DNA from: Vandiemenella viatica
Taxonomy: Eukaryota; Arthropoda; Insecta; Orthoptera; Morabidae
Assembly (NCBI GenBank): GCA_031002005.1
Contig: JARYHS010011408.1
Coordinates: 222,931,473-222,995,472, forward strand
Direction: 5' to 3'
Length of the DNA: 64,000 nucleotides
Made by a program: the position numbers and the translations under genes. Positions within the stretch are counted from its first letter, which is position 1, and each line of letters begins with the position of its first letter. The notes beneath the pieces were generated by a model. That model was not told where the DNA came from, searched no databases, and worked only from the letters and a program-made list of their open reading frames with translations. This document shows, piece by piece, positions 12,660-64,000 of the stretch.

Positions 12660-12893
12660 GATTTTCTTTTTTTTTTCTTTTTTGCTTTTGGCTTTATTCC
12701 TCATCGACGTCGAAGTCCTTAGATGTGGCATAGGACTGGGGGACAAAGAACGGTAAGGAATTCTGCCATGGGCTTCTGAAGCAACCATCATTTGGGGAAC
12801 CCATGGAAAAACAAATCTGGATGGTCGGATGATGATTCGAACCTGCATCCATCTGAATCCAAGGTCACAGCGTTACCACTCACCAATCACGTG
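12660..12893 (-). mobile_element. SINE family A (tRNA-derived), diverged copy
   Basis: Read on the minus strand, the tRNA-like head has a B box (GGTTCGAATCA), followed by the CCATGGG and GCCATGGCAGAATTCC body landmarks of family A. The 3' end is a GCC-AAAAGCAAAAA tail. Most of this copy is duplicated at 63850-64000. Confidence 0.85.
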
Positions 12894-12934
12894 ATTTTTT
12901 AGTTAAAAAATATATCCGAAATCAATCTTTCTTA

Positions 12935-13185
12935 AATTAAGTGGAAGGGTCAAGTATAAAATGGAGGTTTTCAGAAATGACGCGTGAGCGAAAAAGTTTG
13001 TGAAGACTCTCACAGAAAGAAAAGACAGGAAGGTGTATTACTTATTGAGGTATGGGGGAATGGTTAATTTGTAACTGGAGAGAACAGTTTTAGATGGATT
13101 TGTAAAGGAAGAAGAAGATTATAGTATGAAGCAGATAATTGAGAATGTAGGTCTTCATTTGTATGCCGAAATAAAGAGATTTATT
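12935..13185 (+). mobile_element. RTE/BovB-like LINE C-terminal fragment
   Basis: The sequence matches 19873-20126 in direct orientation and 63550-63815 in inverted orientation. The frame gives KEEEDYSMKQIIENVG and then YAEIKRF, the C-terminal tail typical of endonuclease/reverse transcriptase LINEs of the RTE/BovB type. Truncated at both ends and frameshifted. Confidence 0.72.
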
Positions 13186-13199
13186 GATGACTCATATAA

Positions 13200-14395
13200 A
13201 CATTTCTTGTGATAAATATTATCTTTGAAACATAGAAAAATCTCAGGTCCAATATTAATTTCTCCTATTAATTTGCGGTTACTCTGTCTATCATTCCACA
13301 ACCAACAAAATACACTGTCATAATTCTATGGGCAGGGGCTACACGTTGAAACGGTGTCATGATATCGTCTTTATCATATTGAGAGAATGGTAGCCACAGC
13401 GGGTGGTATAGGCGAGAAATCATGCCCGATGGCAGCACCTCCGGAAATTCGAAAGCTGTGGTATACCTTTGCCTTCGCTAGCGTGTCATATGTTACGAAA
13501 CGCTACTTCAGGTATGACTCGTTAACTGTATGTCAAGCCACGATACAGGTGAACTCCAAATGAATGGAAACTTTATCACTTGGCGGTTGAACTACTCGTC
13601 GGAATCAGTATCTACTTTGCTGTATATTGGATAACTCTTATGGTGTTTGTTGTATGAAACGTGAAGTAAAGGAAAGGATTAAAGCATTTGTGGCCTATTC
13701 GAGCCAACTTCTCCGAAAGAGACCAATATGCCGACAAGTTAAGGGCTCCAATGCGACAGACGAATTACCATGAACGGTGAATGTTCTCATTCCAATCGCA
13801 TTGTGGGAAGATATGGGATTCAATCCAAGCCTTTGCTACAGAATCTGGCAAATATGAGCTGTCATCAACTACTTGTTTCTAGATATTTTCTTTTATTTCG
13901 GAGATTCCCCCAGTTCTCTGATAGGTTCATATCGCATTTTTTTTCAATATTTTAACGGAGTATAACTCAGCATCACCGTAGAGCAAAAAATTAGGTCAGG
14001 ATTTTATCTACGGTGTGTAAAATATCTTCACAACAATCAACGCAGTTCGTATATGCAATCGATATGCGTTTATCGCTAATTCTTTGAGGCAAAAAAATTT
14101 CCACCATCAGAGGCGGATAAATATTCATGGCAGAAGTTGACGGGACATATTTTAAGTAAAATCCTAAACTTTTCAACATAGAAAATTCCAAATAAATTCC
14201 TCAAACAATGAATAGCTTTACAATAAATTAATACATTAATTACAGCTGTAAATTCTTCAGTCTCACTTATTATAAATTCAAAAAGGCATGTACACAATTC
14301 GCAGGTGTAAAGAAAACTAAATTTCGTGAAGTCGCAAACGTTTTTTTTATGTAAAAAATAAGGAATAGTGGCAGGAAAAATTATCTGCTTTATGT
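13200..14395. other. Arm interior without recognised element
   Basis: AT-rich to neutral sequence duplicated almost intact at 62350-63545. Short frames such as 13770-13955 are broken differently in the two arms and show no domain. Nothing is recognised. Confidence 0.5.
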
Positions 14396-14399
14396 TGTT

Positions 14400-14651
14400 G
14401 GCTTGGTTTTTTGTTTTTGTTTTTGGCTTTACGCCTCGTCGACGTCGTGGTCATTAGAGGCGGGAAATGACTGGGACAAGGAACAGGAAGGAATTCTGCC
14501 ATAGCCTTTTGAAGGAAGCATCCCGGCATTCGCCTGGAGTGATTTGGGGAAACCACGGAAAACCCAAATCTGGATGCCGGACGGTGATTCGAACACGTGT
14601 CCTCCCGAAAACGAGGCCAGAACGTGAATCGTTCAAACACCACGCTCGGTT
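14400..14651 (-). mobile_element. SINE family A, full-length copy
   Basis: The minus strand reads CCGAGCGTGGTGTTTGAACG, a B box (GGTTCGAATC-like, here with TGTTCGAATCA), GGGTTTTCC, GGCGAATGCCGGGATG, then CGTCGACGAGGCGTAAAGCC and an A-rich tail. The counterpart is at 62100-62345. Confidence 0.9.
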
Positions 14652-14832
14652 TATTGGCTTGGAACGTGAAGAAATTCGATCATGGCGTTTTGGAGTAACC
14701 ATCCTGGCATTCGCCTAGAGAAATTTCTGACGACCATAGAAAACAAAAATCTGGATGGATGTACCGGGATTCGTACCCACGCGTCCTGAATGCTAAGCCC
14801 GAGCGTTACCGCTCACACACCAGGTTCGGTGA
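14652..14832 (-). mobile_element. SINE family A-like, second tandem copy, diverged
   Basis: Immediately next to the preceding SINE, the minus strand again shows a tRNA-like head (GGTAACGCTCGGGCTTAGCA, with GGGTACGAATCCCGG as B box) and a shortened body. The same pair recurs at 61918-62100, so the two were adjacent before the duplication. Confidence 0.78.
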
Positions 14833-15190
14833 AATGGTGTAAAATCTATCCCGAAGTCTAGATAATTGTTCAGTTAATTTTTAATTGCTGTTGACAAAAG
14901 AGAACTATCAATTATAACTTTTTTAGTGCGAGAGTAAAGTTACAATCTGTAGGTTTTATGCTTCATTTTCAGATGTTTTTACATGGTAGACATTGCTTGC
15001 TGTCAGCTGAATGCACACTCAAGACGCCCAGTTAAATTTCAATCCGATGGGCGACAATCTCTATACTATGTTGTCATTCACCAACATATAGGGTGATAAA
15101 AAAAAATTAAAATATTGTAGGAGCTGGTAGTTTGCATCAAAAAAGGCAAAAATGTCCAATAAACAATGGGTCGCAGACTCATAGTTTCTG

Positions 15191-16263
15191 TTTTTAGTTT
15201 TTCGGAAAGCCATTGATTCTGTGCCACACAACTGCCTTTTAGGGAAGCTTTGAGCGTACGGTATATCGGATCAGCTTTATGAATGGATAAAGGTTTTTCT
15301 AATTGGTCGGTTGTAAGTATGTCGTCGTTGAAGGAGAAAGCTCTTCTAATCTAAATGTTACATCAGGTGTACCCCAAGGAAGTGTAATAAGACCACTTCT
15401 TTTCTTAATTTTTGTAAACGATCTCGGAGAAAAAGTGAAAAACTTTTTTAGATTGTTTGCTTATGATGCGGTTATTTATAGGGAAGTAAGGAATTTGGCC
15501 GATTGTTTAGAAATTCAGCGTGATCTGGATGATATTTTGGCATGGTACGCTGAGTGGCAATTTACGCAAAATTGTAAAAAGTGCGAGACAATGAGCATAA
15601 CTTACAAAAAGAATCCGATTGTTCAGAAATACTAGGTAAACAGTTCAGTTACTGATATGGTAGATTCTATGAAATATTTGGGAATAACAGTACAAAGGAA
15701 CATGAAATGAGACTTACATATTAATTTGTTAGTAGGTAGAGCTAATTCTAGGTTGCGATTCCTAGTCTTGAAAAATTGTAATGAACAAACAAAGGAGATA
15801 GCGTACAAATCTCTTGTGCGTCCACATTTGGACTACTGTTGTGCCGTTTGTGATCCGTTTCGTAAGAGGCTGATTGACAGTATAGAGAAAGTACAGAGAA
15901 GAGCCGCTCGATTCGTGACCGCTTGCTATAGTCCTTATAAAAGCGTCACCTAACTGATTAGTAGACCTGGCTGGGAGTCTCTGGTAGATAGACGACGCAC
16001 GTTTCGTTTAAACTTATTGGTAAACATGCGTACTCCCACTTTCACTTACGAGTGTAGTGAAATACTTCACCCACCAACCTATTTGAGTCGGAATGACAGG
16101 AAAGATAAGATTAGAGAAATAATGAGCCGCACTGATTCTTACATGAATTGTTTTTCCCTTGTATTATTCGGGATTGGAATTCACAGCAAAGAGATTAGCT
16201 TTGGTGCTTAGCACCCTCTGCCACCCACAATTTTGTGAACTGCAGAGTATATATGTAGATGTA
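15191..16263 (+). pseudogene. 5'-truncated LINE reverse transcriptase (left arm)
   Basis: The sequence encodes, with frameshifts and stops, RT motifs from block A onward: GVPQGSVIRPLLFLIFVNDL, then a damaged catalytic box (FAYDAVIY where family members have FADDAVIY), KSLVRPHLDYCCAVCDPF and QRRAARFVTACYSPY. The 3' end is the non-coding CACCCTCTGCCACCCACAA region and a TGTAGATGTAGAT tail. The clade is CR1/L2/Jockey-like; a single name is not safe. Loss of the first catalytic aspartate plus in-frame stops make it inactive. Confidence 0.88.
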
Positions 16264-16489
16264 GATAATAACAAGGCCCCCAATGTGACGCCCTCCTACG
16301 GCAATGCATGACTCAGCCCTTTGGCATAAGGAATCACGCATTTTTTGAAACTGTCTTGCTTTGTCCTGTACGTAGTCAATGCACGTCATCACATACAGGA
16401 CCAACCAAAACAGTGCGTGATTTCTTATGCCAAAGGGCTGATCCATTCATTGTTGTGGGCGGACGTCACATTGCGGATCCGTTATTATC
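16264..16489. repeat. Central palindrome of the foldback MITE
   Basis: GATAATAAC at the left end pairs with GTTATTATC at the right. In between, CAATGTGACG pairs with CGTCACATTG, CAGCCCTTTGGCATAAG with CTTATGCCAAAGGGCTG, and CAGGACC-like centres match. The arms are about 110 bases with a very short loop near 16380. The counterpart is at 60292-60517. Confidence 0.88.
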
Positions 16490-16594
16490 ACAGAAAGTAT
16501 GCGTTTGCGACCCAATGTTTATTAGTCACTTTCGTCTTTTTTCATGCATACTATCACCTGCTAAAATATTTTACACTTTTTTAAACACCCCGTA

Positions 16595-16870
16595 CAGAGG
16601 TATACTTCCTCAGTAAGCGGCCGGATCGTGACGGTGAGTGGAGCTGAACGTATAACTGATCGTGTGACTGCGGCAGCTCTATGACCCGCTGGCTCTGACA
16701 TTAAGAAGACAACAGGTTGGTGTGACAGGCGATCGCTCAGCCTCTCTGCCACCGAAAGTCGCTTACGTGGGTTCCGCTGACATTTGCTAGATTTCTCCAT
16801 GTACTCACGTAACCCCGTCGATAGCTATTTCTGGACGCTGGTGTAACGACACCAATACGTGACTCATCAG
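16595..16870 (-). other. Unrecognised reading frame shared by both arms
   Basis: The minus strand encodes YMEKSSKCQRNPRKRLSVAE and continues through LSHQPVVFLMSEPAGH to about 16561. In the right arm (59916-60173) the same frame is longer and begins LHQRPEIAIDELREYMEK. The residues are basic and helix-prone, but no family is recognised. The frame is GC-richer than its surroundings. It may be a remnant of a transposon protein. Confidence 0.4.
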
Positions 16871-16984
16871 GGCAGTGAACAGTCAATAATTTATCAAAAG
16901 AACAGCTATGTAGCCCACGCGTGTCAATGAACTTCCCCTAATGCAAAACGCATTTAACATTCCGTCCATGACATAATTGTATTT

Positions 16985-17193
16985 GTTTTTTTTTTTTTCG
17001 GGCTTTACATCTCGTAGACCTCTAGGTCGTTCGAAGCAGGAAATTATTAGGGGCTAGGAACGGGAAAGAATTCGGCCATAAGCTCTTTGGAGTGATTTGG
17101 GGAAACCATGGAAAATCCAAATCTGGATGGCAGGACGGAGATTCGAACCCACGTCCTCTAGAATGCGACGCTAGATCGTTATCACTCATCCTA
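16985..17193 (-). mobile_element. SINE family A, internally deleted copy
   Basis: The minus strand shows a B box (GGTTCGAATCTCC), CCAGATTTGG, TTTCCCCAAATCACTCCA, then a jump straight to GAGCTTATGGCCGAATTC, lacking the GGCGAATGCCGGGATG block. It ends in GTAAAGCCCG and poly-A. The counterpart at 59585-59795 has the same deletion, so the deletion predates the arm duplication. Confidence 0.88.
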
Positions 17194-17199
17194 TTCTCG

Positions 17200-18250
17200 G
17201 TATATAAGTTTATTATCATTTCCCATTTATTACAGCCCATTTAGAGAATTGAGTTTTAACTTTACTCTTCGTCCCATAATTGTAAGAAAATCCAGCTTGC
17301 TTTAGAAATAAAAATTTATTTTATTTTGCTGCACTTGATTATACAATTAATTTATACATCAATAAATGCTATTTTATCTTCACATCATAATAAAATAAAT
17401 CATTGATGGACTGGCTCATATTTTTATGTGTATCTGACTGCAGTTCAGTGCTTGTAACCTCTCTGTCGCACATCCAAAAATTCTTCTTAACCAAAGTTAG
17501 TACGACCCATGGAGGAAGGAATATAAGGAGACGAAATAACGCTAAATCTTTGAAACTTCATATAAAATCTCGTCTCCTACTGCGCATGCACGGTGATCAT
17601 AGGAATCGGCCCAAAACATTGGGCTGTTTGTACTGTGTCTGCTGATGACAATATTTCATTTTCTAATATTCAAAAGTTTTATATAATGCCAAGTTGAGTT
17701 GCATATGGTTGCACATACAGACAAGAGAGGAAACAACCTGGAATAACGTTTCATAATTAAGTCATATTGTAATTATTCTTGAAGTTTCTGATAGGTAACT
17801 GCAACATTAGGGCCTATCCTTATAAATATATTCATTACAGGGTAATTTTGTTCTCAAATATTTGTTGGTGTAGTGTAGACAATTAGCACATGTTACTACT
17901 TTGCACCTGAAAAGCTAGCCTTATTGTAGACAAGTGTTGAAAGTTTAATTTAAGATGGTCAAGTTTATGGTACATCGCGAAACAGTGAATGAGGTACTCT
18001 GCTTGCTTTACTCCAGTTTCAGTTTACACTTACAGTGTACTATGAAATTAATTGTGATAATTTGTGCTGTGCGAACTGCTAAATGTGATTAAACAAACGT
18101 TGTTGCCCGAAATGTAGTTCGCGATGCATTTCATTGTTTAATGTACCATATATGCTATGACTGTACATTTACTGGTGTACGTATTATTTTGTTATGCAAC
18201 TGTTTATTTGTAAATTGACAACTTCTCACATCCCACAGAGCCAGTCTATT
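17200..18250. other. Arm interior, nothing recognised
   Basis: AT-rich sequence duplicated at about 58500-59560. It holds one notable phrase, CATGGAGGAAGGAATATA, at about 17508, which recurs inverted near 19030-19050. No gene or known repeat is recognised. Confidence 0.5.
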
Positions 18251-18259
18251 ATACTGGGA

Positions 18260-18469
18260 TCAATGGAAAATGAATGTATTGTATTTTATGTATTTAGGTG
18301 TGTCTACATCGTTTGATTTAGTAGCGACAATATTAATGGAAAGGTGGGTAGGTTGAAAGCAGCCTGTACCAGAAGGGACAAACAATTTATTATTAGTTGT
18401 TAGTAATTTCATAAGCACCATGTCAGTGACACAACGTGTATCACGTATCGCAATGTATACTACTCCCAT
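18260..18469 (-). other. 69-codon ORF preserved in both arms
   Basis: The frame encodes MGVVYIAIRDTRCVTDMVLM and ends YNTFIFH. The right-arm version (58288-58497) differs by one residue (K to Q near the end). No domain, signal peptide or family is recognised. Preservation is expected from the overall high arm identity, so it is weak evidence for a gene. Confidence 0.25.
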
Positions 18470-18487
18470 TTAAGCTTCTGACTTTTG

Positions 18488-18890
18488 GAGACAGCATATC
18501 TCGAGAACTAAACGAGATATCGAAAAATTTTAATTTTTTCTTTCAATTTCTCTCGCCGTGTTACATAAGAATCTATTATCAAATTTGACTTTGGGGATAT
18601 TTTTCTTCAGTATTTCAACCTAAAACACCTCTTTTGAGACAGTATATCTCGAGAACCAAGCGATATTTTGAAATTTTTTATTATTTATTTTCGAGTTGGC
18701 TCGTCGTGTTACATAAGAATCTAACACCAAATTTGACCTTGGGGAAATGTTTCTTCCGAATTTCAACCTAAAGCACCTCTCTTTTGAGACAGTGTATCTG
18801 GACAACTAAGCAGGATATCAAAAAAAGTTATTCATTTTTGGTCTATCTCGTCGAGTTACATAATGACCCATGATCAAATTGCGGTGCCAC
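18488..18890. repeat. About 150-bp tandem repeat, 2.7 copies, at arm breakpoint
   Basis: The unit carries GAGACAG-ATATCTCGAGAAC, TCTCGCCGTGTTACATAAGAA, CAAATTTGACTTTGGGG and TTTCAACCTAAA. Copies start at about 18488, 18636 and 18786. The inverted duplication ends within the second unit. The right arm keeps about two units (58017-58280). Confidence 0.88.
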
Positions 18891-19872
18891 GGTTGTCGTA
18901 TGATTTCCTTGAGGTTTTTGTACCTATTCCCCGTGTTTCTACGGCCGACCAATATGGCTGCCTCCCCACCCCACTCCTCTCTACCCGGTTTCACACCAGT
19001 GCGTGGTGAAGGTTCCTTGCGTCGTCTCCATATATTCCTTCCTCCATGGTACGACCAACCATAACCTTTGGTTCCACAGACAACGCGTGGCTGCCTTCTA
19101 CTCAAAATAAAATATGTTGTTCCAATGTTATAAATATTCAGTATAAAACAACAGTCAGATATACGGTGTTATCTTATAGGGTCTGTTAGATTTATAGAAA
19201 ATGATTGATCTACTATGATTACATGAAATTGTTTCGCTAATATGCAATATTTTGATTTGCACATAGTGCAAAACTACAAAGTGCATAGGTAGGTTAACTG
19301 GATTGTGATGCTTGGAGTTCCAAACAAAGAATTTTAATTTCATACATTGTGGCAGACAACATATATGAATATTTTTTCCATGTTTATCGTGGTCGAGACC
19401 AAATTAGAAACTTGTACATACTTCATAAATTAATTTAAATATATTTTCATATTGATCGCAATTATTTTTATGTATGTTTTAATTGTTTCTAATACTTGCA
19501 GATTGTTGGCATTCTGGAAAGGGTGGCGGTGAGTTTTGATCGCTTCGAGAATTTTCTCTGTTACTTATAAAATGTTGGTGTGTTAACAACTGGTAGATTC
19601 GCTCGTAATAATGCTATCAAAAATGTATGTAAATTTGTTATATAATGTGCCTTGGAAAATGTGTTTCTGTAATAAAAATGAAGTTAAATGTGTTCATTTG
19701 GTTTCTTATTTGAAGTAGCCTTATTACCACTGTTGAGAAAGCTAATCTCTCCTGTGTGGAGTAATACTTAGTTCAAGATCAATTTGATCTGCAATTTTCA
19801 AATATATAAAATTTCGACCCATTAAAATTCCTATTTACATCATATTTCCATTATAACATTTCCTTAAAAATT

Positions 19873-20185
19873 CTTTTAAATTAAGTGGAAGGGTCAAGTA
19901 TAAAATAGGAGGTTTTCAGAAATGACGCGTGAGGGAAAAAGTTTGTGAAGACTCTCACAGTAAGAAAAGACAGGATGTTGGGTTACGTATTGAGGAATGG
20001 GGGATTGGTTAATTTGTAAGTGGAGAAAACAGTTGTAGGTGGAAGTATAAAGGAAGAAGAAGATTATAGTATGAAGCAGATAATTGAGGACGCAGGTCGT
20101 CATGTGTATGCCGAAATAAAGAGATTAGTTCAAGAGATGAAGAGATGGGGGATTGTTGCAGAAAACCAGTCGAAACAGTGATGAA
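19873..20185 (+). mobile_element. RTE/BovB-like LINE C-terminal fragment
   Basis: A direct, somewhat diverged copy of 12935-13185 that extends further at the 3' side. The frame from about 20050 reads EEEDYSMKQIIEDAGRH, then YAEIKRLVQEMKRWGIVAEN, which resembles the C-terminal end of RTE/BovB LINE polyproteins. Upstream frameshifts kill it. Confidence 0.78.
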
Positions 20186-20334
20186 GAAAAACAACTGACA
20201 GTTGGGGACTGCCGACAGAAGTGAAAACTTAAAACTATGAATATCATACGCGCAACACGTCATACTTATAGCTACAGATATACTAAATAATAATAATTCA
20301 GTGTGGTCGTAATGACCTGTTGACAGGATTTCTA

Positions 20335-20850: not shown

Positions 20851-21039
20851 CTTAGAACAGAGAATAATCACTGTCTTCAGGAAAACGTTAAAAAATATGC
20901 GCTCAGTTTCGTCATGTGGAAGGAAAACTGTTCTCCTTTTTAATGCTGAATACAATCAATGCGAGTGACTGTAATACTGGTAGCCAACAATGTGTAGCTT
21001 AATTTTCCTTTGGGAGCATTCATAAACTACGTGGCTTGG

Positions 21040-21110
21040 TCAAGGGGGGGGGGAGGAGGGGTTGGCTGGAAGGAAACGTTTCGCTGCATGGGGGGGGGGG
21101 GCTTTACGAG
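21040..21110. repeat. G-run low-complexity tracts
   Basis: Runs of nine or more G at about 21043-21060 and 21090-21100. A further run lies at 21296-21311, just downstream of the exon donor in transcript sense, where the runs are C-rich. Confidence 0.85.
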
Positions 21111-21444
21111 TCAGGCCACATAGCTTTCCATTCATATCAGTTTTCACAGTTGAAATGAGTTGCAGAAAACACATCAGCATGTGAATATTCATTTCCTTAA
21201 TTTAATTATCTCCGCATGTAATTTACAATAGTGTGACAAGAGAAAACAGTACAAAAGTCTTCTGGAATCAAAAGAGAAAAAAGCTACGTGCTACGCGGGG
21301 GGGGAGGGGTGGGAGTTGAGACAAAAGCCACGTCGGGGTACATGGGGGTGGAGGAGAGGGTTTCACAGGAGGCCAAAATGGAGCTACCTTTACAACGCGG
21401 AAGCACAGAGTTTTGCTGAATGTTAGACTAAGCAGGAGAGTTAC

Positions 21445-21666
21445 CTGGCACTCCAGAGCGACGTCTGACCCGGCCAGCACCTTGAGCTGCCCGGGCAGGA
21501 TGCTGACGAACTCGGGGAGCTCTGCGGGCTTGCCGACCGTCACAGGCGCAGACGTCGTCACGGACTCGCCCCAGCCGTAGCGGTTGCGAGGCGTCACCCG
21601 AAACCGGTACTCCGTGCCCGGCTTCAGGTTGAACGCGTCGAAGCTGTTGATTGGCGACACTCCAAG
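21445..21666 (-). CDS. Giant muscle Ig/Fn3 protein, exon with Fn3 end and Ig start
   Basis: Internal exon of 222 bp, exactly 74 codons, phase 0 at both ends. The acceptor GCTTCCAG precedes it and the donor GTAACT follows. The first part completes the Fn3 domain begun in the upstream exon: FNLKPGTEYRFRVTPRNRYG, then WGES, matching the conserved L-P-x-T-x-Y-x-F-R-V and N-x-x-G-x-G-x-x-S pattern. A short linker (KPAELPEF) then opens the Ig domain, ending at GSDVALECQ with the first Ig cysteine. The next exon (4383-4630) supplies the rest after a 16.8 kb intron. The bias and GC content are exon-like. Confidence 0.93.
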
Positions 21667-21669
21667 CTG

Positions 21670-24010
21670 GAAGCGACACCAACTAGTTTAATCACTAACA
21701 CTCCAACGAACACTGCCAGAGTAATTTACGATGCCTGAGCAAGTGTGCTGCATCAGAAAATTCAATAATCACAACGAACCGAAGAGATTATAAGGCACTC
21801 AGGAAGTTTCTTTGAAACTCTGAGAAAAGAGGAAGCGTTATGAGAACACCAATGGAATACGTATTACTTATGTTTAGTTCTACCTGAAGAACTTTTCCCG
21901 TAAATTAAAGATAAACATATTCATTGCTTTCTTTGTCATTAATTCAGCCAAAATAAAGATAAAAATATGGAAGCTGAATATAAATTAAATTCTTCCCAAA
22001 TATTAAGAGAAAACGCAAAATTTTTAATGATGAAAACCGAAAAAAGCTGAAATTTGAGTGAATCTTGCTAACGAGTAAAAGATCATTTAAGTTGTGAGAA
22101 TTTGAAGAAATTTGTAAAAGTAATATTCAAAAGTGGAAGATATGTAGGCAGAAAAGAACTAAATAAACATGGATATATCATAACCGTCCTTCAATGCTAC
22201 ACTATTCAAAACGTTTTTTTATATATGATATAAAAAACATTTCAAACTTTTCTACAGAATTCGCTATTTAGACGGTGAAAAAGAAATTCAGATGATTTTC
22301 TTGATGTTATTTGAAACTGTAGTCCCACTTATTATTAATTTTCTGAAACTTTATTTAGTTCTTGCTGTTAACATCTGGAATTGACAGTTAAAATTCATTA
22401 ACAGTTTACGTATACAAGTTTTGGGTGTGATACTGTTGGTTACATGAAAATCTATCTTCTGGATCTGATTATTTCATGATAGGTTTTGGACAGTGTGATC
22501 TACTAACTTCAGCTCATATTTATCTCGGAGCAATTAACAAACGGAAGATCAAGAAACAATTAAATGAGGTAGTGTCATATCGAGATTAAAATGGAGGTCT
22601 GCTATCAACAACATTAAAGGGGAAACAAATAAGAAGGTGTAGACACTATTATCATACACTAAATAAACATCTACCGTATGATTTCGTAAGGTCACTAATT
22701 CACTTACCTCGATAGCTATTGGCCGGAGAACCGTGTCACGTGTCAGCCTTCACTCGCAAAAGAGCGACCAGAGATACCATTAGAAGAAATTCGTTATTAC
22801 GTCAATAACTTAATAGCTGAGGAACTACTACCAAATTAATTGCCATAATACATTACTTAAGTTTGTTTTTCGTAGCGTTTCACAGTTAAAATATTTCTGA
22901 TAAATTTTTCGGCTGAAAAATCGTGGATCTGCTTTTAATTAACATGTAGCTAATTAAAAAACTTAAATAACTTTAAAAAATTAAATTACTCATGGTCTCT
23001 CTTGTAACCACGAATGGCAATTGCCATTCCGGCTTAGGATAAATTTCAATTTAATTAAAACTTTCACTAATGTTGTTTCTTGACCAAAGTTTATGCATTA
23101 CGGTTTATTTGCTTTTTAGGCATTTAACTGACCACTTTCGTTATTTGTCTTTATTAATGTTCACTGTACGTGAGTTATTAGGTTATTTTAAGTGGACATC
23201 AGACCAAATATGTTACCGAATCGACTATTCTGGCAATTCATTTCTTTGTAGTTGCTCAAGCTTAACTGTTTAATAATATGGAATGGTGTATTAAGTTCTC
23301 TGGCCGTTACAGATACTATAACAAATGATTACATTATTAATGTTTGCCCAGTCTCGATTAAAAAAAGAGATGCTTTCGAAGCAAACAGGATTTTTTTTTT
23401 TTTTTAAATGCAGTGTGAACTTTAACGGCCAAATAAAAGTCAAGTTTGTATTTAAGCAAGTTCGAGTTTATGACCTTTGAAACAATTATACTATTGCGCC
23501 ATCGTCCCGGTTCGTGTTTAATACCTACCTCTATTAATACTTCTGAGTTCTTCAAGCTCAAGAGATTTCATTCAACCTGAAACGCGTGTCAAGTTTATAT
23601 TTGTTCAAATCAGGTCAACCTGTCATGTTTCATCCTAAAACCTGGAACTATACTAAATCCGTGATTATACACAAAAAAAGGTCACGGGCTTACACTAGTT
23701 GTTAATAATGTCGTTTTATTTCATAAGTATTCAGTTATAGCATAATATTTACAGCATAGCATTTCAGTTAAAAGATTGTTTGATATCTTCTTTGAGACGA
23801 ACAGAAATGTTTAACGGTTCAGTGAGGACTATAAAAGTACAAAGAGGATACAACTGAATCTTGGTTGTAATATCTGACTGGTTGAATAGTATCAACAAAG
23901 AGTGTGGATGGGCTTAAGAATTCTGGAAACTTACAATTATCGTTTGTGTAAGCATACGTCCTCATGATAAACAATTGGCTAGAATCTCTGTATGTGTCGA
24001 TGATATCGCA
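21670..24010. other. Intron between Fn3 exons, nothing recognised
   Basis: A 2.35 kb AT-rich intron with no repeat family that I can support. Short frames (for example 23070-23273) lack coding features. Confidence 0.6.
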
Positions 24011-24015
24011 CTGAC

Positions 24016-24176
24016 CTCTGTCCATCCTGCGGCGTCTCCTCCGAGCTTCCAGGCCTCGACGCGGTAAGCGAGCACCGGGACGCCTCCACGAGCCTCGCAC
24101 TTGGGCCACGACAGCGTCAGCCAGTTGCGGCCCTGGTCCGAAACCACGGGCTCAGAGGCGATCGCCACCGGTACAT
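24016..24176 (-). CDS. Giant muscle Ig/Fn3 protein, exon with Fn3 first half
   Basis: Internal exon of 161 bp. The acceptor TTATCAG precedes it and the donor GTCAGT follows ACAGAG. It takes one base from an exon further upstream (G plus AT gives Asp) and ends in phase 0. The encoded VPVAIASEPVVSDQG, WLTLSWPK, then PVLAYRVEAWKLGG and WTE is the A-to-D strand half of an Fn3 domain: initial prolines, the LSWP tryptophan, and Y-x-V-E. It joins in frame to the exon at 21445-21666 to make a complete Fn3 domain. No further upstream exon is visible before the right window edge, so this intron exceeds 39.8 kb unless an exon was missed or lies in the N gap. Confidence 0.92.
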
Positions 24177-24465
24177 CTGATAACAAGCAACATGAGGTGA
24201 GCTTCAGCACAAAACACCTGCTTGCAGTCTACTACTAATGCACTGAAATCCCAAACCTAACGTCATCTGTATCCCAACCTCTACCAAAATTCATTGCATT
24301 TCCTGTTTTGCATGATAAGAAAACATTCATTCGAGGGAGTATTCTTACATATACAACTGTCATTTACTGCTATCGTCTGGTATATCGAAGATATTCAAAG
24401 GATAATTTTCTAAATAGACGTGAATGACGTTTTAGCTTTGTCAGGATAAGACAGAAACTAACGAA

Positions 24466-30104: not shown

Positions 30105-30647
30105 AAACACACTCACAGAATAAGTAACATATTCAAAAAACAAGGGCTAAAAATTGCATTTCAGACAAACAACACAGTACAGAAACACCTAAGCAACCAT
30201 AATGAAATAGATCAGTACCAGCAATCAGGGATAAATGAACTGATTTGCCAACAATGTAAAGCGAAATACATAGGACAGACAACCAGGAACTTTACTACAA
30301 GATACAAAGAACACATCAGAGCCATTACATGTACAAATCACTCAACATTTGCAAAACATTTGTTAGATCACAACCACCAACCCACCACGATTCAAACAGA
30401 CATGAAAATACTGACCGAGCGTGGTGGTGTAACGGATAGCGTTCTGGCCTCGCATTCGGGAGGACGGCGGTTCGAATCCCCGTCCGGGCATCCAGATTTG
30501 GGTTTTCCATGGTTTCCCCAAATCACTCCAGGCGAATGCCGGGATGCTTCCTTCAAAAGGCCATGGCCAAATTCCTTCCCATTCCTTGCCCCCATCCTTT
30601 CCCGTCTCTAAAGACCACGTTGTTAAAAAGGGACGTTAAACTGTTAC

Positions 30648-53769: not shown

Positions 53770-54769
53770 NNNNNNNNNNNNNNNNNNNNNNNNNNNNNNN
53801 NNNNNNNNNNNNNNNNNNNNNNNNNNNNNNNNNNNNNNNNNNNNNNNNNNNNNNNNNNNNNNNNNNNNNNNNNNNNNNNNNNNNNNNNNNNNNNNNNNNN
53901 NNNNNNNNNNNNNNNNNNNNNNNNNNNNNNNNNNNNNNNNNNNNNNNNNNNNNNNNNNNNNNNNNNNNNNNNNNNNNNNNNNNNNNNNNNNNNNNNNNNN
54001 NNNNNNNNNNNNNNNNNNNNNNNNNNNNNNNNNNNNNNNNNNNNNNNNNNNNNNNNNNNNNNNNNNNNNNNNNNNNNNNNNNNNNNNNNNNNNNNNNNNN
54101 NNNNNNNNNNNNNNNNNNNNNNNNNNNNNNNNNNNNNNNNNNNNNNNNNNNNNNNNNNNNNNNNNNNNNNNNNNNNNNNNNNNNNNNNNNNNNNNNNNNN
54201 NNNNNNNNNNNNNNNNNNNNNNNNNNNNNNNNNNNNNNNNNNNNNNNNNNNNNNNNNNNNNNNNNNNNNNNNNNNNNNNNNNNNNNNNNNNNNNNNNNNN
54301 NNNNNNNNNNNNNNNNNNNNNNNNNNNNNNNNNNNNNNNNNNNNNNNNNNNNNNNNNNNNNNNNNNNNNNNNNNNNNNNNNNNNNNNNNNNNNNNNNNNN
54401 NNNNNNNNNNNNNNNNNNNNNNNNNNNNNNNNNNNNNNNNNNNNNNNNNNNNNNNNNNNNNNNNNNNNNNNNNNNNNNNNNNNNNNNNNNNNNNNNNNNN
54501 NNNNNNNNNNNNNNNNNNNNNNNNNNNNNNNNNNNNNNNNNNNNNNNNNNNNNNNNNNNNNNNNNNNNNNNNNNNNNNNNNNNNNNNNNNNNNNNNNNNN
54601 NNNNNNNNNNNNNNNNNNNNNNNNNNNNNNNNNNNNNNNNNNNNNNNNNNNNNNNNNNNNNNNNNNNNNNNNNNNNNNNNNNNNNNNNNNNNNNNNNNNN
54701 NNNNNNNNNNNNNNNNNNNNNNNNNNNNNNNNNNNNNNNNNNNNNNNNNNNNNNNNNNNNNNNNNNNNN
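53770..54769. other. Assembly gap of exactly 1000 N
   Basis: Only N between 53770 and 54769. A round 1000 indicates a gap of unknown size, so distances across it are not reliable. All long frames that cross it are artefacts. Confidence 0.99.
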
Positions 54770-54989
54770 CTTTGTGCATGTAAGTGTAAGTATGGTGATA
54801 CCTCGTCTGTCTGATGATTTTGGTAACGATAGTTCTGTCCAGTTAATCAGTGGTAACGACAATTCTGCCCCCACTTCATCGTTTCCATGATGCTTGCTGT
54901 TAGTTCTGTCGACCTCGCTGTATGTATGTACAAGTGTGTGCGTGTGTCTACTTCCTCTGTTAATTTGAGTCTAAAATATATGGTTATAT

Positions 54990-55240
54990 TTTTTTTTTTT
55001 TTTGTAACAGTTTAACGTCCCTTTTTAACAACGTGGTCTTTAGAGACGGGAAAGGATGGGGGCAAGGAATGGGAAGGAATTCGGCCATGGCCTTTTGATG
55101 GAAGCATCCCGGCATTCACCTGGAGTGATTTGGGGAAACCATGGAAAACCGAAATCTGGATGCCCGGACGGGGATTCGAACCGCCGTCCTCCCGAATGCG
55201 AGGCCAGAACGCTATCCGTTACACCACCACGCTCGGTTAT
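54990..55240 (-). mobile_element. SINE family A, tail type 2
   Basis: In reverse: poly-T, TTGTAACAGTTTAACGTCCC, TTTTTAACAACGTGGTCTTT, the body, GGTTCGAATCCCCG, and CCGAGCGTGGTGGTGTAACG. Nearly identical to 30415-30671, making these the youngest-looking copies. Confidence 0.95.
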
Positions 55241-55489
55241 ATGGTTATAGAATTATGCTCACCATCAACGTGTGCTTCTAACCATTGCTTCAGGGCTTAG
55301 GCAATCTCCCATTTGACTGTACTCTTTACAGTTTACTGCCGGTTGTGTTGGCATACGAATTGTGTTTCTCACGTTTTTCACTACATAAAAATCATTTAAC
55401 AGAGAGGGTGATGAGGGAATGTACCAGAGAAGCGAAGGACTTGGATACAAACCCACAATCAGACCATTGTTTGTAAATAGTGTAGTATG

Positions 55490-55690
55490 GAGTCCACATT
55501 TTTAGTACATCAAATGCATGGTGCAAAATATGGCAGCTAGATTTATTAGTGGAAAATATTCAACAAGTGCCTTAATAAAGGAACTGGACTGGATGTCATT
55601 GGGAGATTGGAAGAGTGTCAGGGGCTGTATGTGGTGTATAATGCTGTTAGAATGGATATTGGAGGAATAATTCTGAGTGGTGTATGGAGC
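55490..55690 (+). mobile_element. LINE RT C-terminal fragment
   Basis: The plus strand gives VWSPHF, then MAARFISGKYSTSALIKELD and WMSLGDWKS, matching the order (VEWNPH, AARFVSGNY, IKELEWDSL) of the 8740-8970 copy in diverged form. Confidence 0.75.
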
Positions 55691-55699
55691 CTAAGTTGG

Positions 55700-56650
55700 C
55701 AATTACCACAATCTGGCATTAGACTTTAGATGATGAGGCCTGAGTGGATAAAATATCCAAACACCCACTTTGATCTAACAATTTACGACAATTCAAGCGT
55801 GGGTACTATCTTCGGCGCAATAGAACTAGTGTCTGCACCTATTGTGACGTTTAGGATACTTGTCGATGTGTGGGGGTCTTCTATGAAAATGTGAGTTATG
55901 ATGTCTGTTTGATGACCAAGTTAGCTAAGGGCATTATGTCACTTTTATCGTGGTTAGTTGGATGAAGCATGCAATTATAAATCAAATGTCACACTTGGTC
56001 CTGAATCCGAAGGTTGGCGTTAGATGGGAACATTTTAAACCGAATGGAGAACTCCCCTGGGTCCTGATTTATTGAAAAATAATTTCCTGGAAAAGGGGAG
56101 AATTTTCCTGGAAAACTGCAGTAGAACCACCTTAAGTGAACATTTTGGTCCCTGCTACTGATTAGGAGAAGACTTTGCGAAAGCACTGCCTTAGCGTGAC
56201 TCGATTTTTTATCACATAGGACTGGCGTACTTCGATTCGACAGGGGTGAAATTAGTAAGATTAACAGACGGTATTTCGTTCCTGGAACATACGTGCTGTG
56301 CTGTAAAATACAGTTAAAGGTGTCAATCACTGATGTGTCACAAGGGATTGATTGGAATTTTAGACAAAGTACAGCTAAGGACACTCAATTTGGGTGGGTA
56401 AATAGTTGTGGCAATGAGAAAATGACATATAAGTAGATTACACGGGCGAGAACTTAATGTTTTCTTTTCGCCTAGCACACCCCTCGGATCGAATTCCCGA
56501 GTGCTGAAGTTACTCACATCATTATTATTAAGTATTTGCATGAGAATGAATTTATTCTAGCTAATTAGACACACCAACAGGACGGACATTCACATCCACA
56601 GACACACAATTTCATTACCCCTAATTTGAAATTTGTCCTGGTGGAGGAAC
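55700..56650. other. Intron, nothing recognised
   Basis: Mixed-composition sequence. The 131-codon minus frame at 55989-56384 shows no domain. No repeat family is recognised. Confidence 0.45.
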
Positions 56651-56659
56651 ATCAAAGAG

Positions 56660-57010
56660 GCACCGGCTGCGGGATGTAATCAGCCATAATGCTATATGGA
56701 AGGCTCTAACAGACCTAAGAACTGAAGTGTCCCGATGTAAATATAATATTAAAAAATGGGGGTACACTAATGACAACGATCTATGTGAATGTGGCGAGCT
56801 TCAGAACCCACAACATCTTCTGATATGCAGGAATCTCCCTGAAACCTGCAATATCGACGACCTTTACAGGGCAAACGAGAAGGCCATCAAGATTGCGGAA
56901 TTCTGGTCACATTCTATATAATTGTGTTTATAGTTAATATTAATTAATTAATGTTATTGTTTATTCAACTTGTTATGTCCTGGACACGAGAAATATAAAT
57001 AAAAATATAA
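56660..57010 (+). mobile_element. LINE C-terminal fragment with Cys motif
   Basis: The frame from 56727 reads KKWGYTNDNDLCECGELQNP, HLLICRNLPETC and YRANEKAIKIAEFWSHSI, the classic C-terminal end (C-x-C-G...H-L-L-x-C...A-x-F-W) of Jockey/RTE-type LINE polyproteins. The 3' UTR ends AATATAAATAAAAATATAAA. The upstream part is missing. Confidence 0.87.
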
Positions 57011-57164
57011 ATACCCCTAATTTAATACATCCTTTAAAATACACGGACTGTAGGTGACACTCGTGAGTTATATTATATTGTTCATAATGAAAAAGTGAGT
57101 TTGTTTCCCGTCTCTTCGTCGGTGAATTAATTTTTAATGTCTGCCTGCTTCGATGAACGGAATT

Positions 57165-57325
57165 TATGTTAACAGCGAGGTCTTAGAGACGGGAAAGGAT
57201 GGGAAGGAATTCGGCCATGGTCTTTTAAAGGAAGCATCCCCGGCATTCACTTGGAGTGATTTTGGGAAACCATGGATGCCCTGGAACCTCCGTCCTCCCG
57301 AATGCGAGGCAAGAACGCTAAATAA
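57165..57325 (-). mobile_element. SINE family A fragment
   Basis: AACAGCGAGGTCTTAGAGAC, the body in reverse with GGAATTCGGCCATGGTC and a shortened B-box region (CCTCCGTCCTCCCGAATGCG). Internal deletions remove the GGTTCGAATCC box. Confidence 0.83.
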
Positions 57326-57521
57326 TTTCATGAAAACAGGTACACATAGAATTCTTCCTCGGTTTTATATCTGGAGTTTATGACGCTTTTTTTTCCCCAT
57401 ATAGAACGTTAAAAGGAAAACATTTATGCTTTTTTTTATTCAAGGCAGGTATCCTCTCTAGGTATGGAAACTAAATTTTGAAATTGACGAGTTGGAACGG
57501 CTTTTTTCAATAAAAACACCG

Positions 57522-57585
57522 CGGGCCGGACTCGAACCGGCGACCTTCGGCACTCTAACCCCTACGCTACCGATGTCTGTTCACG
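57522..57585 (-). mobile_element. tRNA-like SINE head or tRNA remnant
   Basis: The minus strand reads GGTAGCGTAGGGGTTAGAG (A box), then GCCGGTTCGAGTCCGGC, a perfect T arm. The piece between is too short for an anticodon arm of normal size and the acceptor stem does not close, so it is not a functional tRNA. A run of A follows. Confidence 0.6.
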
Positions 57586-57759
57586 TAAAAAAATCGCTTA
57601 AGTATTTTTCACGATACAAAATATTTTACTGTGTGTCGATAGTAGCCAAGATGTTCAGTGCTTGCTTAACAGGACGCTAGGAATACATATTTCGTCACGC
57701 TTAGTAAACAGAGATAACAGTCGTTGAAACAGTGTACACATTTCGCAAAGCGCGCCGGA

Positions 57760-58010
57760 AATAATGCCACCGAACGCCATCTAGCCGCCACCAAATGAAC
57801 TAGAAATTAAGCCCTTGGGAGATGCCGCCATCTGTGCGGGCGGTTGAGGAACTAACGGCGGCCATCTTGGTCACACCAAACGGGGGGCGGCAATCTTGAC
57901 CGGGCGGTGCGCTCGGCGGCCATCTTGGTCACACCAAACGGGGGCGGCCATGTTGTGACGTCACGCGACCGTGCTGCCACCTGGCGGTGTTTTTGAACTC
58001 TTATTATCTT
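57760..58010. promoter_or_regulatory. GC-rich block with repeated YY1/Pho-type and CRE sites
   Basis: A 29-base unit with GGCGGCCATCTTGGTCACAC is repeated at 57857 and 57914. GCCATCT or GCCATGTT occurs five times in about 180 bases, and GTGACGTCACG (CRE) lies at about 57955. GC and CpG content are far above the neighbourhood. The block abuts the inner end of the right inverted-repeat arm. Regulatory function is inference; it may be part of a transposon terminus. Confidence 0.5.
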
Positions 58011-58016
58011 CCTACT

Positions 58017-58280
58017 AAGGACAAATTTGGTGTTAGATTCTTATGTAACACGACGAGCCAACTCGAAAATAAATAATAAAAATTTTCAAAATATCGCTTG
58101 GTTCTCGAGATATACTGTCTCAAAAGAGGTGTTTTAGGTTGAAATACTGAAGAAAAACATCCCCAAAGTCAAATTTGATAATAGATTCTTATGTAACACG
58201 GCGAGAGAAATTGAAAGTAAAAATTAAAAGTTTTCGATATCTCGTTTAGTTCTCGAGATATGCTGTCTCCAAAAGTCAGA
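58017..58280. repeat. About 150-bp tandem repeat, about 2 copies (right arm)
   Basis: Inverted counterpart of 18488-18739. It has two TCTCGAGATATACTGTCTC / TCTCGAGATATGCTGTCTC units. Confidence 0.88.
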
Positions 58281-59584: not shown

Positions 59585-59795
59585 CGAGAATAGGATGAGT
59601 GATAACGCTCTAGCGTCGCATTCTAGAGGACGTGGGTTCGAATCTCCGTCCTGCCATCCAGATTTGGGTTTTCCATGGTTTCCCCAAATCACTCCAAAGA
59701 GCTTATGGCCGAATTCTTTCCCGTTCCTAGCCCCTAATAATTTCCTGCTTCGAACGACCTAGAGGTCTACGAGGTGTAAAGCCCGAAAAAAAAAA
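59585..59795 (+). mobile_element. SINE family A, internally deleted (right-arm copy)
   Basis: GGATGAGTGATAACGCTCTA, GGTTCGAATCTCCGTCC, CAAATCACTCCAAAGAGCTT and a GTAAAGCCCG poly-A tail. Shares the internal deletion with 16985-17193. Confidence 0.9.
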
Positions 59796-59915
59796 AACAA
59801 ATACAATTATGTCATGTACGTAATGTTAAAAGCGTTTTGAATTAGGGGAAGTTCATTGACACGCGTGGGCTACATAGCTGTTCATTTGAGAAATTATTGA
59901 CTGTTCACTGCCCTG

Positions 59916-60191: not shown

Positions 60192-61678
60192 GGGTGTTTA
60201 AAAAAGTGTAAAATATTTTAGCAGGTGATAGTATGCATCAAAAAGACGAAAGTGACTAATAAACATTGGGTCGCAAACGCATACTTTCTGTGATAATAAC
60301 AGATCCGCAATGTGACGTCCGCACACAGCAATGAATGGATCAGCCCTTTGACATAAGGAATCACGCACTGTTTTGGTTGGTCCTGTATGTGATGACGTGC
60401 ATTGACGACGTACAGGACAAAGCAAGACAGTTTCAAAAAATGCGTGATTCCTTATGCCAAAGGGCTGAGTCATGCATTGCCGTAGGAGGGCGTCACATTG
60501 GGGGCCTTGTTATTATCTACATCTACATATATACTCTGCAGTTCACAAAATTGTGGGTGGCAGAGGGTGCTAAGCACCAAAGCTAATCTCTTTGCTGTGA
60601 ATTCCAATCCCGAATAATACGAGGGAAAAAACAATTCATGTATGAATCAGTGCGGCTCATTATTTCTCTAATCTTATCTTTCCTGTCATTCCGACTCAAA
60701 TAGGTTGGTGGAAGAAGTATTTCACTACACTCAAAAGTGAAAGTGGGAGTACGCATGTTTACCAATAAGTTTAAACGAAACGTGCGTCGTCTATCTACCA
60801 GAGACTCCCAGCCCAGTCTACTAATCAGTTCTGTGACGCTTTCATAAGGACTATAGCAAACGGTCACGAATCGAGCGGCTCTTTTCTGTACTTTCTCTAT
60901 ACTGTCAATCAACCCATTACGAAACGGAGCACAAATGGCACAACAGTAGTTCAAATGTGGACGCACAAGAGATTTGTACGCTATCTCCTTTGTTTGTTCA
61001 TTACAAGTTTTCAAGACTCGACGTAGGAATCGCAACCTAGAATTAGTTCTACCTACCTAATGTGTAAGTCCCATTTCATGTTCCTTTGTACTGTTACTCC
61101 CAAATATTTCATAGAATCGACCGTATCAATAATTGAACTGTTTACCTCGTATTTCTGAACAATCGGATTCTTTTTGTTAGTTATGCTCATTGTCTTGCAC
61201 TTTTTACAATTTAGTGTAAGTGGCCATTCAGCGCACCATGCCAAAATGACATCCAGATCACGCTGAATTTTTAAGCAATCGGCCGAATTCCTTACTTCCC
61301 AATAAATAACCGCGTCATCAGCAAACAATTTAAAAATGCTTTTCACTTTGTCTCCGAGATCGTTTACAAAAATTAAGAAAAGAAGTGGTCCTATTACACT
61401 TCCTTGAGGTACACCCGGTGTAACATCTAAATTAGAAGAACTTCCTCCTTCAACGACGACCGACCAGTTAGAAAATCCTTTATCCATTCACAAAGCTGAT
61501 CCGATATACCGTACGCTCGAAACTTCGCTAAAAGGCGGTTGTGTGGCACAGAGTCAAAGGCTTTCTGAAAATCTAAAAACAGAAAGTATGCGTCTGCGAC
61601 CCATCGTTTATTAGACATTTTTGTCCTTTTTTGATCAAACTATCAGCTCCTAAACTATTTTACACTTTTTTATCACCC
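60192..61678. mobile_element. Long foldback MITE, split by a LINE (right arm copy)
   Basis: GGGTGTTTAAAAAAGTG at the left end and its inverse at 61678 (CACTTTTTTATCACCC) bound the element. The palindrome at 60292-60517 and the LINE at 60518-61579 have the same arrangement as in the left arm, mirrored. Confidence 0.83.
60518..61579 (-). pseudogene. 5'-truncated LINE reverse transcriptase (right arm)
   Basis: Better preserved than the left copy. In order on the minus strand: YFLFLDFQKAFDSVPHNRLL (block A with the catalytic D), a frameshift, GVPQGSVIGPLLFLIFVNDL (block B), FADDAVIYWE (catalytic DD intact), KYLGVTVQRNMKWD, a stop, KSLVRPHLNYCCAICAPF, KVQKRAARFVTVCYSPY and FFPRIIRDWNSQQ. The 3' tail is the ATCTACATCTACAT repeat. 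Fingers, endonuclease and ORF1 are absent, so it cannot move itself. Clade CR1/L2/Jockey-like. Confidence 0.9.
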
Positions 61679-61917
61679 AAATGTTGGTTTGTGACAAAAT
61701 AGTATGGCGATTGTCGCCCATTGGATTGTAATTTAATTGGGCGTCTTCAACGTGCATTCAGTTGACATAGAGCAATTTCTAAAAACATTTGGAAACGAAG
61801 CATAAAACCTACAGATTGGAGCTTTACTCTCGCATTAAAAAAGTTATAATTCATGGTTCTTTTTGTCAACAGCATTTAAAAGTAATCTGAACAATTAGCT
61901 ACACTTCGGGATCACGG

Positions 61918-62100
61918 AACCTGGTGTGTGAGCGGTAACGCTCGGGGCTAGCATTCAGGACGCGCGGGTTCGAATCCCCGTCCATTCCCGTCCTCCAGAT
62001 TTTTGTTTTCCATGGTCGTCAGAAATTTCTCATGGCGAACGCCGGGATGGTTACTCAAAAACACCATCACCGAATTTCTTCACGTTCCAAGCCAATAAAC
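61918..62100 (+). mobile_element. SINE family A-like, diverged (right arm)
   Basis: Head GGTGTGTGAGCGGTAACGCT, B box GGTTCGAATCCCCG, then a shortened body. Counterpart of 14652-14832. Confidence 0.82.
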
Positions 62101-62345
62101 CGAGCGTGGTGGGTGAACGATTCACTTTCTGGCCTCGCTTTCGGGAGGACACGGGTTCGAATCCCCGTCCGGGCATCCAGATTTGGGCTTTCCATGGTTT
62201 CCACAAATCACTCCAGGCGAATGCCGGGATGTTTCCTTCAAAAGGCTATGGCAGAATTCCTTCCTGTTCCTTGTCCCAGTCATTTCCAGCCTCTAATGAC
62301 CACGACGTCGACAAGGCGTAAAGCCAAAATCAAAATCCAAGCCAA
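62100..62345 (+). mobile_element. SINE family A, full-length (right arm)
   Basis: CCGAGCGTGGTGGGTGAACG, GGTTCGAATCCCCGTCC, the full body, GACGTCGACAAGGCGTAAAG and A-rich tail. Counterpart of 14400-14651. Confidence 0.92.
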
Positions 62346-62349
62346 CAAC

Positions 62350-63545
62350 ATAACGCAGATAATTTTTCCTGACACTATTTCTTATTTTTTACATAAAAAA
62401 AACGTTTGCCACTTCACGAAATTTAGTTTTCTTTACACCTGCGAATTGTGAACATGCCTTTTTGAATTTATAATAAGTGAGACTGAAGAATTTACAGCTG
62501 TAATTAATGTATTTATTTATTGTAAAGCTATTCATTGTTTGAGGAATTTCTTTGGAATTTTCTATGTTTAGGATTTTATTTAAAATATGTCCCGCCAACT
62601 TCTGACATGAATATTTATCCGCCTCTGATGGTGGAAATTTTTTTGCCTCAAAGAATTAGCGATAAACGCATATAGATTGCATATACGAACTACGTTGATT
62701 GTCGTGAAGATGTTATTTTACACACCGTAGATAAAATCCTGACCTTATTTTCTGCTCTACGGTGATGCTGAGTTATACTCCGTTAAAATATTGAAAAAAT
62801 GCGATATGAACCTATCAGAGAACTGGGGGGAATCTCCGAAATAAAAGAAAATATCTAGAAACAAGTAGTTGATGACAGCTCATATTTGCCAGATTCTGTA
62901 GCAAAGGCTTGGATTGAATCCCATATCTTCCCACAATGCTATTGGAATGAGAACATTCACCGTTCATGGTAATTCGTCTGTCGCATTGGAGCCCTTAACT
63001 TGTCGGCATATTGGTCTCTTTCGGAGAAGTTGGCTCGAATAGGCCACAAATGCTTTAATCCTTTCCTTTACTTTACGTATCATACAACATACACCATAAG
63101 AGTTATCCAATATACAGCAAAGTAGATACTGATACCGACGAGTAGTTCAACCGCCAAGTGATAAAGTTTCCATTCATTTGGAGTTCACCTGTATCGTGGC
63201 TTGACATACAGTTAACGATTCATACCTAAAGTAGCGTTTCGTAACATATGACACGCTAGCGAAGGCAAAGGTATACCACAGCTTTCGAATTTCCGGAGGT
63301 GCTGCCATCGGGCATGATTTCTCACCTATAACATCCGCTGTGGCTACCATTCTGTCAATATGATAAATACGATATCATGACACCGTTTCAACGTGTAGCC
63401 CCTGCCCATAGAGTTATGACAGTGTATTTTGTTGGTTGTGGAATGATAGACAGAGTAACCGCAAATTAATAGGAGAAATTAATATTGAACCTGAGATTTT
63501 TCTATGTTTCAAAGACAATATTTATCACAAGAAATGTTTATATGA
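62350..63545. other. Arm interior without recognised element
   Basis: Mirror of 13200-14395. No feature is supported. Confidence 0.5.
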
Positions 63546-63549
63546 GTCA

Positions 63550-63815
63550 TCAATAAATCTCTTTATTTCGGCATACAAATGAAGACCTACATTCTCAATT
63601 ATCTGCTTCATACTATAATCGTCTTCTTCCTTTACAAATCCATCTAAAACTGTTCTCTCCACTTACAAATTAACCATTCCCCCATACCTCAATAAGTAAC
63701 GCACCTTCCTGTCTTTTCTTTCTGTGAGAGTCTTCACAAACTTTTTCGCTCACGCGTCATTTCTGAAAACCTCCATTTTATACTTGACCCTTCCACTTAA
63801 TTTAAGAAAGATTGA
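63550..63815 (-). mobile_element. RTE/BovB-like LINE C-terminal fragment (right arm)
   Basis: Inverted counterpart of 12935-13185, with GAAGCAGATAATTGAGAATG on the minus strand. Dead fragment. Confidence 0.75.
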
Positions 63816-63849
63816 TTTCGGATATATTTTTTAACTAAAAAATCACGTG

Positions 63850-64000
63850 ATTGGTGAGTGGTAACGCTGTGACCTTGGATTCAGATGGATGCAGGTTCGA
63901 ATCATCATCCGACCATCCAGATTTTGTTTTCCCATGGGTTCCCATAATGATGGTTGCTTCAGAAGCCCATGGCAGAATTCCTTACCGTTCTTTGTCCCCC
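63850..64000 (+). mobile_element. SINE family A, diverged, cut by window end
   Basis: GGTGAGTGGTAACGCTGTGA, B box GGTTCGAATCATC, CCATCCAGATTTTG and CATGGCAGAATTCC. Mirror of 12660-12893. Confidence 0.87.

Follow-up and report, generated by a model that had tools for sequence, protein, structure and literature searches.

An inverted repeat at an Unc-89/obscurin-like locus of Vandiemenella viatica probably reflects a misplaced alternative haplotype

Is the long inverted repeat at an Unc-89/obscurin-like muscle gene of the orthopteran insect Vandiemenella viatica a feature of the genome or a product of its assembly? The stretch in question (“the window”) comprises 64,000 nucleotides, positions 222931473-222995472 of the 306-Mb scaffold C6490 in a 3.72-Gb assembly (GCA_031002005.1). 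Working from the window, the original prediction had described a pair of inverted repeats of 6 kb, 39 kb apart and about 95% identical, which arose when a composite segment was duplicated within the introns of one gene. The pair is there: 12738-18740 and 64000-58017 match as reverse complements with 94.2% identity with gaps (BLAST), a global alignment has 5691 of 5936 aligned columns identical (95.9%), and the inner ends of the arms are separated by 39.3 kb. The length of 6 kb, on the other hand, arises because the partner hits the edge of the window: the match terminates at 12738, where the partner is already at the window's last base, 64000. The analysis set out here suggests that the contig carrying the right arm (contig B) is a retained, mis-scaffolded alternative haplotype of the locus, and that the inverted repeat is probably a false duplication.

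The window coordinates were extended both ways with flanking DNA (negative values lie to the left of the window), and the inverted match stays collinear for at least 100 kb. The left copy reaches from 18740 to -81471 or further, and the right one from 58017 to 173536 or further; throughout 1-12737 the homology carries on with the right copy past 64000. Between the copies there are 2511 substitutions in 52656 aligned sites (4.77%), in an alignment that takes in 77% of the left stretch and 62% of the right. Divergence per kb ranges from 0 to 18%, the value of 0 coming from an interval with 49 aligned sites, and its coefficient of variation (CV) is 0.78 over the 55 of 63 one-kb intervals that had at least 500 aligned sites, the other 8 being left out. 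Of ten insertions listed as confined to one copy, six are in the right copy and the other four in the left. At their edges the sequence overlaps by 2-18 bp, in five of the ten by at least 11 bp, as is usual for target-site duplications; among them are several with SINE-like (short interspersed nuclear element) or inverted ends, and one AT microsatellite. In the assembly as given, the locus presents what defines a segmental duplication, namely a pair of copies no shorter than 1 kb with at least 90% identity, here in opposite orientation; some blocks lie below 90%.

The copy-number search that the original prediction had proposed returned the two known arms and no further full-length copy among the candidates scored: a 1-kb arm probe has two full-length copies (40 of 1675 candidates scored), and a 1.2-kb arm probe two full copies together with many partial repeat matches (40 of 7444 scored). 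These and the probe counts below are lower bounds, in which a full copy is expected to outrank the short repeat matches listed.

Four minus-strand exons in the window give a series of fn3, Ig and Ig domains. Their joined translation of 267 residues has its best match in a hypothetical protein of the cockroach Diploptera punctata (65%), a named match (54%) in “Muscle M-line assembly protein unc-89, partial” of Eumeta japonica, and its best PDB match in titin; compared over these 267 residues only, the gene is Unc-89/obscurin-like by sequence. The fn3-Ig-Ig exon series is like that of Unc-89/obscurin and the titin-like giant muscle proteins, with the reservation that Ig and fn3 domains are common to many families. 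Exons e3 and e4 are found in both copies, and three further exons to the left of the window in copy 1, placed through homologues, each have a counterpart in copy 2. The arms are therefore not purely intronic, as had been proposed, since in their full extent they hold at least five exons in both copies. The placement of the right arm in an intron of the same gene could not be read from the window, where queries taken from this region of the gene alone detected no exon beyond 24.2 kb.

All five shared exons examined are open in both copies and keep their AG acceptors. Between the copies, 32 changes are synonymous and 4 non-synonymous, with a synonymous divergence (dS) of 0.126 and a non-synonymous divergence (dN) of 0.005 (ratio 0.04; binomial p 3e-15). 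As the coding changes are mostly synonymous, both copies have been under purifying selection; both are real, old and used. For exons e1 and e2, no second copy was found among the 40 candidates scored with a probe of 20900-24300, nor, in the case of e2, among the 40 scored with a probe of 20900-22600; each probe returned itself and partial repeat matches.

The copies are connected through nothing but a scaffold gap. A gap of 1000 N separates contig A, which holds the left copy, from contig B, and it is the sole run of five or more N from -69999 to 174000. On the inner side of contig B the arm homology runs up to a transposon, in which the contig ends. Parts of 55250-58016 match many scaffolds at up to 99%, and the element's strongest match by a wide margin, a full-length one at 99%, lies on scaffold C1 near 107.194 Mb, where it continues to the last base of contig B, 54770, at 99.4%. 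On C1 an end of the element in the opposite sense is followed by GTCCTT and then by a 94.5% counterpart of 18741-20276, the left-copy sequence just past the arm. The right copy and C1 have a diagnostic single-nucleotide polymorphism (SNP) in common (GTCCTT), which the left copy lacks (GACCTT). The two flanks enter the same 3.2-kb sequence and lie on separate contigs; the flank of the right arm and that on C1 appear to be the two sides of one insertion with a 6-bp target-site duplication. The inner edge of the arm falls exactly, to the base, on a transposon insertion in copy 2 and is not a duplication breakpoint, and if the flank on C1 is the other side of this insertion, copy 2 does not end at 18740. 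On its other side, the C1 piece borders on a sequence that has a similar AGTAGGAAG terminus; after a further 1.35 kb or so comes another gap of 1000 N, C1:107189771-107190770.

Loci of the element with AGTAGGAAG termini are 54770-58016 in the window, C1:107190764-107193922 (L004) and L050. Provided that both flanks stem from one insertion, the element would have terminal inverted repeats no shorter than 3.2 kb, with a SINE in each. Polinton/Maverick elements have 6-bp target-site duplications, AG...CT termini and long terminal inverted repeats, along with genes for a protein-primed DNA polymerase, an integrase and capsid proteins; the element here shares the 6-bp target-site duplication and the AG...CT ends and looks Polinton/Maverick-like, as far as its ends, the only parts seen, allow. 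A SINE subfamily with copies 95-98% identical occurs at 30414-30662, at 54989-55237 and at about 90301-90553 in the right copy; it has probably been active recently, as one copy is exclusive to copy 2.

How could an allele come to stand behind its counterpart in inverted orientation? If the two haplotypes are very different, the assembler may have kept contig B (54770 rightwards) as a contig of its own. Haplotype 2 would carry a large young transposon with inverted ends at 18740/58017, inside which the assembler broke; contig B would accordingly end in the element, and the piece from its far side, the allele of 18741-20276, would be stranded on another scaffold. Contig B would then have been turned round and placed tail-to-tail after contig A, across a gap of 1000 N, possibly because cross-mapping contact reads pull the same ends of allelic contigs together. 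On this account the copies would be alleles, not paralogues.

Comparable errors are known. Heterotype false duplications are marked by gaps between the copies, half read depth, discordant linked reads and one-copy k-mers; they are tied to regions of greater divergence between haplotypes, and exons can be split between the copies (Genome Biol 2022, PMC9516828). The present case resembles those described there in having a divergent genic second copy on the same scaffold with a gap between, and of the marks the assembly gap is present (53770-54769); it differs in that the copy is flipped, and the word “inverted” is absent from the main text of that paper. Palindromic chimeric-read artefacts of 7-17 kb are also mentioned there; for the present pair such an artefact was ruled out by the 4.8% divergence between the arms and by their differing insertions.

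To see how local the doubling is, we considered seven probes away from the arms, five of which were single copy among the scored candidates. Two of the five on C6490 were doubled, both inverted, both within 500 kb of the window and with their copies 150-165 kb apart. The probe at 223.150 Mb (223150001-223153000) has its second copy at 223.311-223.314 Mb (223310993-223314003) in two pieces of 98% and 87% covering 274-3000 of 3000, and that at 223.250 Mb (223250001-223253000) at 223.4017-223.4047 Mb (223401699-223404682) with 96%. The probes at 222.500, 222.700 and 223.500 Mb on the same scaffold gave no second copy among the scored candidates, and neither of two probes on other scaffolds had a full-length second copy among them; the last 0.9 kb of the second of these is a dispersed repeat (98-100%). 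The extra pairs are inverted and yet in the same order, so that at least two separately flipped blocks are needed, and the pairing partner changes somewhere in the interval from 174 to 218.5 kb of the window coordinates.

The alternative nearest to face value is that an inverted segmental duplication of 100 kb or more genuinely took place, in which the 3' part of the gene was copied head-to-head next to the original and both copies function, the second perhaps giving a shorter product from an internal promoter. We regard this as unlikely. In its favour, the divergence is high (4.8% overall, dS 0.126), no second e1 or e2 appeared among the scored candidates, the doubling is not general (none of two probes elsewhere, two of five on this scaffold), and the mosaic identity is what gene conversion between paralogues would give. 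Palindromes formed by inverted segmental duplication have long inverted arms with an identity made mosaic by arm-to-arm gene conversion, and the locus is like them in both the long arms and the mosaic; it is unlike them in the gap between the arms, the transposon at the inner edge and the independent insertions in each arm. A true duplication is moreover at odds with a transposon insertion at the inner edge, whose other flank appears to carry the copy on past 18740, and with a scaffold gap between the copies, and the nearby flipped pairs would require several independent inverted duplications. It is also at odds with strong purifying selection acting on a copy that lacks its 5' exons: intact exons under such selection are expected of an allele and unexpected of a fragment lacking the 5' exons, which supports the allelic reading. 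The same reading is supported by the CV of divergence, which resembles the varying coalescence times of alleles, and the patchy doubling among the probes fits the retention of only the most divergent stretches of a haplotype. The divergence might instead be that of subgenomes in a hybrid or long-term asexual lineage, the copies being homeologues from different species, again flipped by scaffolding. The allele divergence expected for a large insect is lower than that between the copies, which would favour such an origin; since five of the seven probes outside the arms are single copy among the candidates scored, where an unpurged hybrid would double widely, we consider it very improbable, even though collapse or purging could hide a wide doubling. 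The idea that one large transposable element, present twice, makes up the arms has practically nothing to recommend it beyond their length of about 6 kb in the window and their high transposon content: arms of at least 100 kb hold exons, and the 1-kb probe found just two full copies among the 40 candidates scored. A 6-kb transposon making up the whole arm was likewise ruled out by extent, exons and copy number.

Several observations weigh against a misplaced haplotype as well. The divergence, at 4.8% of aligned sites and a dS of 0.126, is high for alleles. The lack of a second e1 and e2 among the scored candidates means that haplotype 2 would have to be collapsed or missing there. All three pairs are inverted, where random orientation would yield direct pairs too, and the partner of the probe at 223.150 Mb (about 218.5 kb in window coordinates) is 223.311 Mb, not the left copy. 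The reading of the two flanks as one insertion is based on a 6-bp repeat, a single SNP and a 99% match of the element, and with the opposite flank of the transposon on a different scaffold a second misplacement is needed. The copies could, though this is rather doubtful, be alleles from a haplotype pair of unusual age, forming a block of perhaps several hundred kb around this sarcomere gene; such a pair, with its divergence of 4.8% overall and 12.6% at synonymous sites, might have been kept apart by, for example, a balanced inversion or introgression, with most of the probes outside the arms (five of seven) looking single copy. A mis-scaffolded haplotype nevertheless remains the reading that we favour, and a mis-join behind the 1000-N gap, which the original prediction had itself named among the findings that would overturn it, is the better-supported outcome.

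Within the window, the arms have their nested repeats in common, among them a SINE that carries one internal deletion in both arms: the copies at 16975-17195 and 59590-59810 lack the same stretch, which four fuller copies retain. The original prediction was right on this point and in taking the arms to descend in common with their nested insertions, not from independent transposon insertions; a duplication of about 6 kb confined to introns does not follow. Nor is the identity uniform, since it runs at 97.7%, 90.0% and 97.7% across the 6 kb, that is, 2.35% differences, then 10.0% at 14545-15969, then 2.35%. The likelihood gain for this partition is 65, against a maximum of 10.3 in 100 permutations. 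Arm-to-arm gene conversion as the main cause of this pattern was dropped, as the same unevenness is seen all along the extended arms. Changes polarised with other SINE and LINE (long interspersed nuclear element) copies number 25 in the left arm, 27 in the right and 5 in neither (usable sites, 6 kb); one-sided conversion between the arms is unsupported, the polarised changes being about equal on the two sides. Conserved reverse-transcriptase sites favour the right arm by 20 to 6, an imbalance that only says that the left is more decayed.

The coordinates of the features are collected in Table 1. In the right copy, the counterpart of the LINE fragment (60583-61487, minus strand) has two overlapping open frames, with RVT_1 at 61053-61487; the extent of the LINE beyond the RVT_1 match was set by a second copy at 46690-47217. 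Inverted repeats of about 100 bp (80%) at 15091-15191 and 16490-16590 lie around the LINE fragment of the left arm, as if it were held or had been received by a DNA transposon. The 148-bp minisatellite of the right copy is split by the transposon. Elsewhere in the window, two close pairs of short inverted repeats, 43885-44009 / 44214-44338 (98.4%) and 36266-36389 / 36482-36606 (92.8%), are probably small DNA transposons. Rfam and tRNA searches gave no match.

Table 1. Features of the two copies and of their junction, in window coordinates (LTR, long terminal repeat).
Feature	Position	Strand	Remark
Exon e4, I-set Ig	678..847	-	both copies; right copy about 77.3-77.5 kb
Exon e3, I-set Ig	4383..4630	-	both copies; right copy about 75.8-76.1 kb
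Left arm in window	12738..18740	+	belongs to longer left copy
Higher-divergence patch	14545..15969	+	SINE parts, spacer, one inverted-repeat end, LINE reverse-transcriptase fragment
LINE (non-LTR) reverse transcriptase, 3' part, left copy, broken frame	15303..16267	+	Pfam RVT_1 at 15303-15635
148-bp minisatellite, inner end of left arm	18482..18863	+	dispersed repeat, about 88-92% in loci compared
Empty target site GACCTT, left copy	18735..18740	+	right copy carries transposon here
Left-copy sequence past arm	18741..20276	+	94.5% counterpart on scaffold C1, about 107.1921-107.1936 Mb
Exon e2, second half of fn3 and start of Ig domain	21445..21666	-	seen only in left copy
Exon e1, first half of fn3 domain	24016..24176	-	seen only in left copy
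Scaffold gap, 1000 N, between contig A (left copy) and contig B (right copy)	53770..54769	.	
Young high-copy transposon end, terminus AGTAGGAAG; SINE at 54989-55237; contig B ends inside	54770..58016	-	
Target-site duplication GTCCTT, right copy, directly before transposon	58017..58022	-	T instead of A is the copy-2 SNP
Right arm in window, inverted copy, contig B	58017..64000	-	runs on, free of N runs, to 173536 or beyond

At face value, the locus would pass for a large palindrome surrounding a giant muscle gene or for a partial duplication of Unc-89. The inverted repeat is most likely not a real feature of the genome, and the locus is better taken as a warning that gene models, copy-number estimates and structural-variant calls are unsafe there; contig B ought to be considered for purging or re-placement. 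The most interesting residue is the divergence between the copies: if they are alleles, the block is unusually old, and if the high allelic divergence is true, the region would be a candidate for an old balanced haplotype in V. viatica.

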